From the NCBI RefSeq assembly GCF_020171285.1, contig NZ_JAIUZI010000007.1:124001-188000 (forward strand): 64,000 bases of DNA. Reading direction: 5' to 3'. How positions within the stretch are numbered: position 1 is the stretch's first letter; each line of letters starts with the position of its first letter. The stretch comes from Seohaeicola saemankumensis (GTDB taxonomy: Bacteria; Pseudomonadota; Alphaproteobacteria; Rhodobacterales; Rhodobacteraceae). Below are positions 26,079 through 30,060 of the stretch, piece by piece. Made by a program: the position numbers and the translations under genes. A model generated the notes under the pieces. It made no database searches and had not been told where the DNA came from. It saw only the letters and a list, made by a program, of their open reading frames with translations.

Positions 26079-26468
26079 TCATATCAGGGTGGCCCGTTCG
26101 ATTTGCGCCACGGTCGCGGCGGGGTCGGCCTGATACTTGATCAGGTGCTTGTCGCCGCCGTTTGTGACGATTTGTACAAAACTCCCAAGCGTTTTGACCG
26201 TTTTGACCTGAGCCAGCGGCACCCGCTGACCGGCCGGACCGGTCAGCGCGGTGCTGTCCAGTTCCCAGACAGCTGACAGTTCTTCGGAGGCAAGGTACCA
26301 GCCGCGCACCCCGATGCCGCCGATCCCGGCCACGAGGCCGGTCCAGACAAAGGGGTTGTCCATCAGCCAGAGAACCAGCATCGCGGTGGCGCTGGCGAGC
26401 GCCGCCAGCCAGAGGTGGCTGCGGATGTAGACGCTGCGGTCGGCGGCAAAGGTGATGGTGTCAATCAT
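26079..26468 (-). CDS. Small membrane protein with PH-like domain
   Basis: A 129-residue protein with two membrane helices (about 20-37 and 42-58) and a C-terminal domain of about 65 residues (VWELDSTALTGPAGQRVPL, VKTLGSFVQIVTNGGDKH) in a pattern of short strands and a final helix like bacterial PH-like domains. No known motif identifies a ligand. It overlaps the preceding gene by 4 nt (ATGA) and is followed closely by the dihydroorotase homolog. Function unknown. Confidence 0.75.
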   Translation of the reverse strand: MIDTITFAADRSVYIRSHLWLAALASATAMLVLWLMDNPFVWTGLVAGIGGIGVRGWYLASEELSAVWELDSTALTGPAGQRVPLAQVKTVKTLGSFVQIVTNGGDKHLIKYQADPAATVAQIERATLI

Positions 26469-27013
26469 AGGATCACCAGTGCCAGCACGAGGACGATCAG
26501 CGCCATCACTACGGCAAAGAGGGTGGCGCCGATCCGGCGCGCCTGGTCGCGGGCCTGGCGGGGCGGCACGCGTGGGGCGGTAAAGGGTTTGGCGCTGTCG
26601 GTTTGCATGGCGGTCGCGGTCCAGTCGGTTCCGGGTTCGTGGAATTGCGCGGTCAGCGTCAGGCTGGCGGCGGGGGTCAGGGTCATCGCCTGCCCCTGAA
26701 AGGCGCGGCTGCGCAGCACCATGACCCAGCCGGTCAGCCCGTCGATGCGGCTCTGGCTGGCGGCGACCTGATCGTGGGGAATACCCAGCCCGTCGGACAG
26801 GTAGCCGGACAGGCCGAGCTCTTCCATGTCGGCGACGTTGAAGATGTCGATCTGGTCGGGGTCCAGCCCGCTGACGCCCAGCAGTTGATCGGCCGCGCCG
26901 GGTTCGCGCAGAAAACGGGCCTGTTCGGGGGGCATGTTCAGCGCGAACAGGCGCACCACACCGCGTTCGCCGGCGGCAACGTCCAGAGAGGGGCTGTCAG
27001 GCGTCATGCGCAT
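26465..27013 (-). CDS. Tail-anchored protein of unknown function
   Basis: A 182-residue protein with a soluble N-terminal region of about 150 residues and one C-terminal membrane helix (IGATLFAVVMALIVLVLALVIL), so it is likely anchored with the bulk in the cytoplasm. Stretches such as LGLSGYLSDGLGIPHDQV and GWVMVLRSRAF do not match a family I recognise. The start is ATG 27013, which has AAGGA 6 nt upstream and overlaps the end of the preceding gene; ATG 27007 is an alternative. Sits in the pyrB cluster. Confidence 0.75.
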   Translation of the reverse strand: MRMTPDSPSLDVAAGERGVVRLFALNMPPEQARFLREPGAADQLLGVSGLDPDQIDIFNVADMEELGLSGYLSDGLGIPHDQVAASQSRIDGLTGWVMVLRSRAFQGQAMTLTPAASLTLTAQFHEPGTDWTATAMQTDSAKPFTAPRVPPRQARDQARRIGATLFAVVMALIVLVLALVIL

Positions 27014-27479
27014 CGCCTTTCCTTGCGGTATCGACCGCCGCCTGCAGCGTGGCGCGGACGGATTTGCCGTCGGGCAGAAAGGCCATGACGATGGCCTGCC
27101 GGCTTTCAAGCCGGACCCGCAGCGCCCAGCCCATCCAAGGGCGGATCCGCAGGATATCACACAGATCGACATCGGCGTTCTGGGTGTCGTCGCGCGTGTT
27201 GCGAAAGATCAGCCGGTCATTGGTCAGCAGCCAGCAATCATCCCGCCTGCGGGGCCATTCGTCGTAGTCGCCGAAAACAAAGATGTAGATTGCCATGACC
27301 AGCGGAAAACTGGCGATCCAGAAAAACAGATCGTCCCGACCGCCGAACGCGCCGCCGAATCCGCCCAGTATCAGCGCCGTAATCGCGCCGACGAACAACA
27401 GCTTGCGGGCAAAGACCCGGAAGTCGGGCCGCCATTCCGCCAGAAGGGTTTCGCCGTGGTGCAGGGGGACGTCGGTCAT
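26997..27479 (-). CDS. Membrane protein with PH-like domain
   Basis: A 160-residue protein: a short N-terminal soluble piece ([20 protein letters not shown]), two membrane helices (about 28-45 and 52-70), and a C-terminal domain with [13 protein letters not shown], the W/Y-x-L-T-N-x-R strand pattern typical of bacterial PH-like membrane proteins. It starts within the pyrB stop (ATGA) and runs into the tail-anchored protein. Such domains are structural; no role is known in this cluster. Confidence 0.78.
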
Positions 27480-28417
27480 GCGGCGCGGGCCTTGGCCAGA
27501 TTGCGGGCGAGCAGCTCCATCGCGGCCATGCGCACGGCGACGCCCATTTCGACCTGATCCTGAATCACTGAGCGATTGATGTCATCGGCCAGCGTCCCGT
27601 CGATTTCGACACCGCGGTTCATCGGGCCGGGGTGCATGACGATGGCGTCGGGTTTGGCCAGTCCCAGTTTCTCGGCGTCCAGCCCGTAGCGGTGGTAGTA
27701 TTCGCGCTCTGACGGGATAAAGCCGCCGTCCATACGTTCGCGTTGCAGGCGCAGCATCATCACCACGTCGACATCGGCCAGCCCCTTGCGCATGTCGTCA
27801 TAGACCTCGACCCCAAACTGGTCGATCTGGGACGGCATCAGGGTCGGCGGGCCGATCAGGCGGATGCGGTTTTCCATCTTGCCCAGCAACAGGATGTTGG
27901 ATCGCGCCACGCGGGAATGGGCGATGTCGCCGCAGATGGCGATGTTGAGCCGGTGCAGCCGCCCCTTGGCGCGGCGGATGGTCAGCGCGTCCAGCAGCGC
28001 CTGTGTGGGGTGTTCGTGGCGGCCGTCGCCGGCGTTGAGCACCGCGCAGTTGACCTTTTGCGCCAAAAGGTCCACCGCGCCGGAATGCGGGTGGCGCACC
28101 ACCAGCAGGTCGGGGTGCATGGCGTTCAGCGTCATCGCGGTGTCGATCAGGGTTTCGCCCTTTTTGATCGAGCTGGCCTGCATCGCCATGTTCATCACGT
28201 CGGCGCCCAGCCGTTTTCCGGCCAGTTCGAAACTGGCCTGGGTGCGGGTGGAGGCCTCGAAGAACATGTTGATCTGGGTGAGACCGGCCAGCACGTCGGC
28301 GTGTTTGTCCGATTGCCGGTTTAGGTCGACGTAGGTTTCGGCCAGATCGAGGATCGCGGTGATGTCCTGCGGCCTGAGCTGTTCGATCCCAAGAAGGTGG
28401 CGATGGGCAAAGGTCAT
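27476..28417 (-). CDS. pyrB: Aspartate carbamoyltransferase catalytic subunit
   Basis: A 313-residue enzyme that carbamoylates aspartate in pyrimidine synthesis. The carbamoyl-phosphate site is [13 protein letters not shown] (the S-T-R-T motif), followed by RHPHSGA, the [14 protein letters not shown] block that binds aspartate and phosphate, and MHPGPMNRG near the C terminus. The start at 28417 matches the family N terminus (HLLGIEQL). No regulatory subunit gene (pyrI) is present; instead the cluster contains a degenerate dihydroorotase that may take its place as a structural partner. Confidence 0.96.
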
Positions 28418-28500
28418 GGGGCAGCTCCGTCGGGGCAATCGGGTTGCTTATAGGAAGGCCGCCGGGCGGGGGCAATATTGACGGTGGTTTTTGACCGGGC

Positions 28501-29169
28501 TCAGTCGGCGTTTTCCGGCCGGGCGTCCGGGTGTTCGGGGGTTTTGAGACAGCCTCCGTCGGGCTGGCAGGTGAACCCCTGTTCGCAAAGCGTGCCGGTG
28601 GGGCAGCGGGTGGCGCCGACCTCGGAACAGCCGCCGTCGGCGAGGCAGAGCTGACCGGGTTTGCACCATTTGCCATAGCCGCAGTCGACCGCCAGTTGCG
28701 GCACGCAGCCGCGGATCAGCGAGCATTTGAAGCCGGGGCGGCATTGCGACCCGTTCGGGCAGAGAAAGGTATTGGGGCGGGTGCAGCCGCCCGTGGGCAG
28801 GCAGGTGGTGCCGGCCGGACAGGTGGTGCCCAGCCCGTCGCAGCGGGTTTCACCGCGTTTGAGGCAGGTGCCGCCGTGTCCGCAGGTGGAGCCGGGCGGA
28901 CAGGTGCCGGGACCGCAGCGGGTGGTTCCGAAAGGTTCGCAGCGCAGGCCGTCGGCGCTGCAGAGTTGGCCGGCGGGGCAGCTGCGGCCGCCGCCGCAAT
29001 AGGTGCCGCCCAGCGGGATGCAGTAGCCGTCCCAGGTGCAGGTCTGGCCCGACCGGCAACAGGTGTTGAACCCGCAGGCGGTCTGACCCGGCGGACAGCT
29101 GTTGTGCGCGGCGGCGGTGGCGGCAACGGGGGCGAGCAAGAGGCAGAACAGGAGCAGGACGAGGCGCAT
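28501..29169 (-). CDS. Secreted cysteine-rich repeat protein
   Basis: A 222-residue protein with a signal peptide (MRLVLLLFCLLLAPVAATAA) and a mature part in which I count 30 cysteines. They are arranged as seven repeats of about 18-26 residues with four cysteines each, roughly C-x4-6-C-x4-5-C-x4-6-C (for example CGPGTCPPGSTCGHGGTC and CPTGTLCEQGFTCQPDGGC), joined by short linkers often containing GxTxC. The pattern looks like eukaryotic-type disulfide-rich modules and implies oxidative folding in the periplasm or outside. The C-terminal tail is acidic. Function unknown. It is divergent from the uracil-DNA glycosylase gene. Confidence 0.8.
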   Translation of the reverse strand: MRLVLLLFCLLLAPVAATAAAHNSCPPGQTACGFNTCCRSGQTCTWDGYCIPLGGTYCGGGRSCPAGQLCSADGLRCEPFGTTRCGPGTCPPGSTCGHGGTCLKRGETRCDGLGTTCPAGTTCLPTGGCTRPNTFLCPNGSQCRPGFKCSLIRGCVPQLAVDCGYGKWCKPGQLCLADGGCSEVGATRCPTGTLCEQGFTCQPDGGCLKTPEHPDARPENAD

Positions 29170-29274
29170 GGTAACAGGGTCTACGGGGTGGGCCATCGAG
29201 ACAAGGTGAATTTTGCGGGCGTTTTGCCGGCGGGTTCGGCTTTCCCTTGCCGCGCGGAGGGGTAGAGTGGGCGC

Positions 29275-30060
29275 ATGGATTCGGCTTTGGACTTTCATAG
29301 CGCCCGGGCGTTGCTGGAGTGGCAGGTGGAACTGGGCGCTACCGAGGCGATCGGGGATGTGCCGGTCAACCGGTATGAGCTGCCGGACAAGCAGGCCAAA
29401 CCGGCGCAGGCGAAACCGGCAGCGCAGGCGATCCAGCCGGGTGTTGCGCCGGTGGAGGAGAAGGCGGCGGATCCGGTGAGGGTGGCGCGCGAGGCGGCAG
29501 CCGGGGCCGGGTCGCTGGATGCGCTGGCCGGGGCGCTGGCGGCATTCGAGCATTGCGAGCTGAAGAAGGGTGCGCGCAACCTGGTGTTTTCGGACGGGGT
29601 GGCGGGCGCGCCGGTGATGATCATCGGCGAGGCGCCGGGCCGCGACGAAGACCGCGAGGGGCGTCCCTTTGTCGGGCGCGCCGGGCAGTTGCTGGACCGG
29701 ATGCTGGACGCGATTGCGCTGAACCGGGCCGAAAACGTCTATATCACCAACGTGCTGCCGTGGCGGCCGCCGCAGAACCGCGATCCGCTGCCCGAAGAGA
29801 TCGCCATGCTGAAACCGTTTCTGAAGCGGCATGTCGAACTGGCCCGGCCAAAGGTGATCGTGCTGATGGGAAACATCAGCTGCCAGGCGGTGCTGGGCAA
29901 GCGCGGCATCACGCGGTTGCGCGGCCAGTGGGATGACGCGATGGGGGTGCCGGTGCTGCCGATGTTTCACCCGGCCTATCTGCTGCGCCAGCCTCAGGCC
30001 AAGCGTGCGGCCTGGGCGGACCTTCTGGACCTGAACGCGCGCCTGAGAGAGCTGACATGA
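29275..30060 (+). CDS. Family-4-like uracil-DNA glycosylase without Fe-S ligands
   Basis: A 261-residue DNA repair enzyme that removes uracil from DNA. An N-terminal 80-residue Ala/Pro-rich extension precedes the glycosylase domain with MIIGEAPGRDEDREG (active-site loop), RPFVGRAGQLLD, ITNVLPWRPPQNRDP and FHPAYLLR. Family 4 enzymes bind [4Fe-4S] with four cysteines; here the corresponding positions are F91, C94, W163 and L179, so three of four are lost. Catalysis may still be intact. It overlaps the phosphoesterase gene by 4 nt (ATGA). Confidence 0.88.
   Translation: MDSALDFHSARALLEWQVELGATEAIGDVPVNRYELPDKQAKPAQAKPAAQAIQPGVAPVEEKAADPVRVAREAAAGAGSLDALAGALAAFEHCELKKGARNLVFSDGVAGAPVMIIGEAPGRDEDREGRPFVGRAGQLLDRMLDAIALNRAENVYITNVLPWRPPQNRDPLPEEIAMLKPFLKRHVELARPKVIVLMGNISCQAVLGKRGITRLRGQWDDAMGVPVLPMFHPAYLLRQPQAKRAAWADLLDLNARLRELT

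Follow-up and report, generated by a model that had tools for sequence, protein, structure and literature searches.

What kind of protein places about 30 cysteines in a chain of some 200 residues, and what could it do for the bacterium that makes it? This question is raised by a minus-strand gene in the 64,000-nucleotide stretch of Seohaeicola saemankumensis DNA that we analyzed (the window). A first-pass annotation had described its product as a secreted protein with seven four-cysteine repeats and had left adhesion, toxin-like and metal-binding roles open.

A cysteine-rich, probably exported protein

The gene and its features lie next to two genes that, judging from their sequences, we take to be udg and pyrB:

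28504..29169, minus strand: Cys-repeat protein gene, stop codon at 28501-28503; 222 amino acids, 44 homologs, dN/dS about 0.11
29107..29169, minus strand: putative signal peptide, about residues 1-21, read from sequence
29020..29097, minus strand: module 1, six-Cys N-terminal cap, residues 25-50 (C-x6-C-x4-CC-x5-C-x5-C), from the alignment; cap also present in the long array of locus L071
28939..28998, minus strand: module 2, residues 58-77, from alignment and Cys spacing
28864..28917, minus strand: module 3, residues 85-102, from alignment and Cys spacing
28783..28842, minus strand: module 4, residues 110-129, from Cys spacing among homologs
28705..28761, minus strand: module 5, residues 137-155, non-Cys pairwise identity 0.77; best conserved together with module 6
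28627..28683, minus strand: module 6, residues 163-181, non-Cys pairwise identity 0.78
28549..28605, minus strand: module 7, residues 189-207, missing from 40 of 44 aligned sequences, most Ruegeria included
27476..28438, minus strand: pyrB, encoding aspartate carbamoyltransferase; follows downstream as the next gene, with a probable ATG start at 28417; conserved neighbor by synteny
29275..30060, plus strand: udg (uracil-DNA glycosylase), divergent; conserved neighbor by synteny

The N-terminus (MRLVLLLFCLLLAPVAATAAA) reads as a Sec-type signal peptide, and a hydrophobic N-terminus is also found in the homologs. Of the 31 cysteines, one (Cys9) lies inside this putative signal peptide, where no lipobox can be read. 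The other 30 fall in a mature part of about 201 residues, in agreement with the earlier count. This mature part is 15% cysteine, as against 0-2.5% in nine neighboring proteins, has a pI of 7.7 and contains 37 glycines, 20 prolines and only three histidines. A long open reading frame on the plus strand (window 28531-29265) overlaps the gene and is probably a by-product of high GC content. We rejected it as a true gene because stop codons interrupt the antisense frames in most homologs sampled.

Cysteine spacing defines seven modules

The numbers of residues separating consecutive cysteines of the mature protein are 6,4,0,5,5,7 in module 1 and 5,5,6,7, then 4,5,5,7 and 6,5,5,7 in modules 2 to 4, followed by 5,5,5,7 in modules 5 and 6 and 5,5,5 in module 7. 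The consensus is C-x5-C-x5-C-x5-C-x7, with a period of 26 residues and seven-residue spacers between the four-Cys modules. Of the 29 Cys gaps, 17 equal five, whereas 20,000 shuffled versions of the mature sequence gave at most 8. The described number of seven repeats is therefore correct, whereas their uniformity is not: the first module has six cysteines, and only the following six have four. There are no CxC or CxxC clusters in the window protein (no Cys gap of 1 or 2) and only a single CC pair. Among homologs, the gaps within modules are near-constant, and the linker between modules 3 and 4 (residues 103-109) is the sole strongly length-variable gap, ranging from 7 to 20 amino acids. Near-fixed spacing within modules combined with a variable gap between two of them is expected for separately folding modules.

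The cysteines are kept under purifying selection

A scan of species genomes yielded 44 loci, the majority named Ruegeria and the remainder belonging to Phaeobacter marinintestinus, Tropicibacter, Falsiruegeria, two Rhodobacteraceae records (EL53 and KLH11) and one alphaproteobacterial metagenome-assembled genome. We aligned 43 of these with the window protein. Every one of the 44 sequences keeps all cysteines of modules 1-3, 5 and 6, and C110 and C117 of module 4 are missing in two (loci L007 and L008). In each of the 57 loci counted, a few of which represent one genome seen twice, the mature protein has an even number of cysteines: 10, 20, 24, 26, 30 or 32, with 26 or 30 in most members. Over 74 usable pairs, the median dN/dS is 0.107, with most of the variation at third codon positions. 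This is a genuine gene under constraint. Because the aligned sequences keep their Cys columns, the pattern is not a product of chance; this conservation and the dN/dS together also reject decay, which loss of the cysteines among homologs would have indicated. The description of a protein of secreted type, densely packed with disulfide-like modules, is supported.

Conservation outside the cysteines is uneven. Among 13 representatives, pairwise identity at non-Cys positions is highest in modules 6 and 5 (0.78 and 0.77) and reaches 0.68, 0.58, 0.52, 0.44 and 0.33 in modules 2, 4, 1, 3 and 7, respectively. Individual non-Cys residues, aromatics among them, are conserved in the 44-sequence alignment; those in modules 5 and 6 are R144, F147, K148, Y165, K167 and W168.

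One chromosomal place and probable vertical descent

At all loci showing both flanks, the gene sits between divergent udg and co-directional pyrB; in the stretches covering L005 and L053, no pyrB was detected. Relatives that do not carry the gene, and in which both flanking genes were found, have 92-340 bp between udg and pyrB. A scan upstream of pyrB loci recovered a Cys-dense open reading frame solely at the window's own locus. Carriers make up 15 of 298 sampled Rhodobacteraceae genomes (about 5%), and a class-wide sample gave matches in 3 of 385 genomes, one of them the window itself, so the claim that such proteins are rare in alphaproteobacteria was borne out. In a pyrB tree, one clade holds 18 of 20 carriers (support 96/87), and the positions of G116 and G161 were not resolved. 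The GC3 of the gene is 0.851, compared with 0.80-0.85 in three neighbors, and phage and plasmid records contain no match to the protein. Taken together, the chromosomal place, the spread, the pyrB tree, the neighbor-like GC3 and the lack of phage or plasmid matches fit one gain in a subclade followed by vertical descent. Recent transfer is not favored, given the GC3 and the phage and plasmid records.

Between the gene and pyrB, we found no promoter- or terminator-like site, which makes co-transcription of the two possible. Small open reading frames lie between pyrB and pyrC on the minus strand (26079-26468, 26465-27172 and 26997-27479; window 26079-27479). Matches to them recur at carrier loci and are weaker or absent near pyrB in relatives.

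Module number varies from about two to at least twenty

The shortest and longest members differ widely in length. In genome G116, which has 10 cysteines, only two full modules are present, scoring best against module 7 (then 5) and module 6. The reduced copy in G288 has 20 cysteines and retains modules 5 and 6, others having been lost. At the opposite extreme, G067 has an expanded array at the udg-pyrB place (L071 2-1516, minus strand, plus L070), with a contig gap inside it and at least 20 modules. Its first contig encodes a signal-type N-terminus and a six-Cys cap, after which twelve four-Cys modules run to the contig end; the second starts inside the array and carries eight modules before leading to pyrB. 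In the four-Cys modules of both contigs, every gap pattern is 5,5,5,7. By pairwise score, modules 2-8 of the first contig are for the most part module-6 and module-5 types in alternation, and later ones resemble module 4.

Exported-type proteins of other alphaproteobacterial families also gave matches, one in G481 (loci L078/L119; 8.9e-10 with the module profile) and one in G838 (locus L080; 8.2e-13). Both have C-x5-C-x5-C-x5/6-C modules similar to those of the Cys-repeat family, but these are fewer and less regular. The stretch read at L078 contains neither udg nor pyrB. In the G838 protein, three Cys modules at the N-terminus precede a long C-terminal region outside the Cys pattern, which gives coiled-coil-like matches below the cut-off (best Pfam E = 0.00086). 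We regarded the weak matches that the class-wide sample gave in G370, G386, G561 and G606 as chance or unrelated.

Predicted fold and disulfide pairing

An AlphaFold2 model built from ten sequences (mean pLDDT 82.5, pTM 0.42) has nearly one short strand per cysteine in the first half of the protein, and a three-module fragment was modeled with a mean pLDDT of 78.4 and a pTM of 0.45. The fold is thus predicted to be strand-rich. Foldseek comparison of the full-length and three-module models with the PDB returned no match at E ≤ 0.001. We did not take as meaningful one fold match from a viral library, to Tetraselmis virus 1 (8.6e-4), whose TM-scores were 0.17 and 0.07.

The architecture of the protein and the constraint on it are well supported; export and disulfide formation are strongly suggested. 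The invariant Cys columns, the even Cys counts and the presence of DsbB in the source genome all favor a disulfide-bonded array. A co-occurrence with particular Dsb systems, which had been put forward as a check, is not supported: all 27 genomes tested, whether carriers or non-carriers, have DsbB. In the four-Cys element of scytovirin, C1 pairs with C3 and C2 with C4. The module sequences might also point to another arrangement: in module 4 of L007, L008 and L057, C1 and C2 are lost together and C3 and C4 are kept, a loss that pairing C1-C2/C3-C4 would fit more simply than C1-C3/C2-C4.

Comparison with known proteins

Searches of Pfam, NCBIfam (window protein alone), PHROGs and PADLOC gave no significant match and thus no known family for the protein, and a sequence search of the PDB gave nothing below E = 0.08. 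The literature searched contains no description of a Cys-repeat family between udg and pyrB, and the main texts of two exoproteome studies, of Ruegeria pomeroyi with Synechococcus and of Phaeobacter DSM 17395 mention no Cys-rich protein.

The best PDB sequence match of profile A2 is the cyanobacterial high-mannose lectin scytovirin (2jmv, 2qsk and 2qt4), which at E = 0.084 is not significant. The likeness consists of tandem domains and a repeated C-x5-C-x5-C-x5-C pattern, with RCSNNKQCDGARTCSSSGFC in the profile alignment. Each scytovirin domain has two internal disulfides, and a Cys7-Cys55 bridge links the two domains (PMC8004682). In contrast to these two bridged domains, members of the Cys-repeat family have a six-Cys cap and from two to at least twenty modules. 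Scytovirin was absent from the fold matches listed for the full-length and three-module models. The module profile itself best matches the amino-terminal part of granulin in the PDB (1i8x and 6cku; E = 0.66, not significant), and granulin is also the first fold match of the three-module model (E = 0.47, not significant). Shared features are a C-x5-C-P-x-G-T-x-C motif and short β-hairpins. Granulin has 12 cysteines with several CC pairs, a pattern that the Cys-repeat protein, with its one CC pair, does not follow. Two families of Cys-rich, extracellular-type modules, DUF7107 (PF23416; E = 0.071) and Dickkopf_N (PF04706; E = 0.21), were each weakly matched by one of 11 A2 sequences, and the window protein itself matched neither in Pfam. 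We conclude that the Cys-repeat proteins form a genuine family that the libraries and literature searched do not describe, and that it belongs to a general kind already known: disulfide-rich repeat proteins.

Possible functions

We tentatively propose that the protein may be an exported, fully disulfide-bonded array of β-hairpins whose modules 5 and 6 bind a ligand in the envelope or outside the cell. The Sec signal peptide would direct export, and the mature protein would probably be fully oxidized. After the six-Cys cap, four-Cys modules of 26 residues would follow in a row, each consisting of short β-strands stapled by disulfides from the ordinary DsbA/DsbB pathway. Such a protein would most likely act as a rigid binder or scaffold, either periplasmic or exposed on the cell surface. 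Its ligand site would lie in modules 5 and 6, at the six conserved residues named above, with the remaining modules serving as spacers or extra copies. The array is favored by the median dN/dS, the strands predicted by AlphaFold2 and the scytovirin match. That modules 5 and 6 may form the functional core is suggested by their highest non-Cys identity, their retention in G288 and the module matches of G116, and the alternating module-6 and module-5 types in G067 also favor this part of the proposal. Against the array stand the lack of a significant PDB fold match, a pTM of only 0.42-0.45 and scytovirin and granulin matches below significance. Against a ligand, the neighbors suggest no partner, udg and pyrB being housekeeping genes, and the conservation of modules 5 and 6 could stem from folding constraints rather than binding.

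The array might instead be a purely structural spacer: a stiff, disulfide-stapled rod in the envelope or periplasm that binds no specific ligand and for which length is what counts. Such a rod would allow the number of modules to change freely, as it does across lineages, G116 having about two and G067 at least 20. We nevertheless consider this rather unlikely, since the non-Cys positions of modules 5 and 6 are conserved far above those of modules 3 or 7, and since 26 or 30 cysteines are common to most members.

It seems improbable that the protein is an array of antimicrobial or toxin-like peptides secreted against other cells. Its dense Cys modules do resemble many small secreted effectors, and the six-Cys cap has the C-C-CC-C-C order known from knottin-type peptides. 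However, no immunity-like gene is adjacent, the gene occupies one fixed chromosomal place with no phage or plasmid match, PADLOC returned nothing and purifying selection is strong; the toxin role envisaged by the first-pass annotation is accordingly not favored. We give still less credence to a role in accepting and giving disulfides, as a redox buffer of the periplasm or a substrate in envelope stress: the high Cys content and the presence of DsbB in every genome tested would suit it, but a redox sink has no need of conserved non-Cys residues, aromatics included, and DsbB is present independently of gene carriage. Least probable is a metallothionein-like protein with reduced, metal-binding cysteines, for which the 15% Cys content speaks but which is disfavored, as is the metal-binding role suggested earlier, by the predicted export into an oxidizing compartment, C-x5-C spacing with a single CC pair in place of the CxC/CxxC clusters of metallothioneins, three histidines in the mature part and even Cys numbers in all loci, which fit disulfides.

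Returning to the disulfide-bonded binding array, we also entertain, as an unlikely but more specific idea, that the family represents a new bacterial protein architecture, a ladder of 26-residue disulfide-stapled hairpins that can be extended indefinitely and has a lectin-like module, providing roseobacters with a multivalent binding rod for algal or bacterial glycans.

Regular disulfide-repeat proteins are uncommon in alphaproteobacteria, and here one has been kept vertically in a marine clade. Its vertical retention, strong constraint and varying module number (about two to at least twenty) provide a natural length series in which to study the folding and binding of disulfide-stapled arrays. 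Roseobacters live with algae; if the module is indeed lectin-like, the family would offer a lead to a carbohydrate-binding protein in these bacteria.
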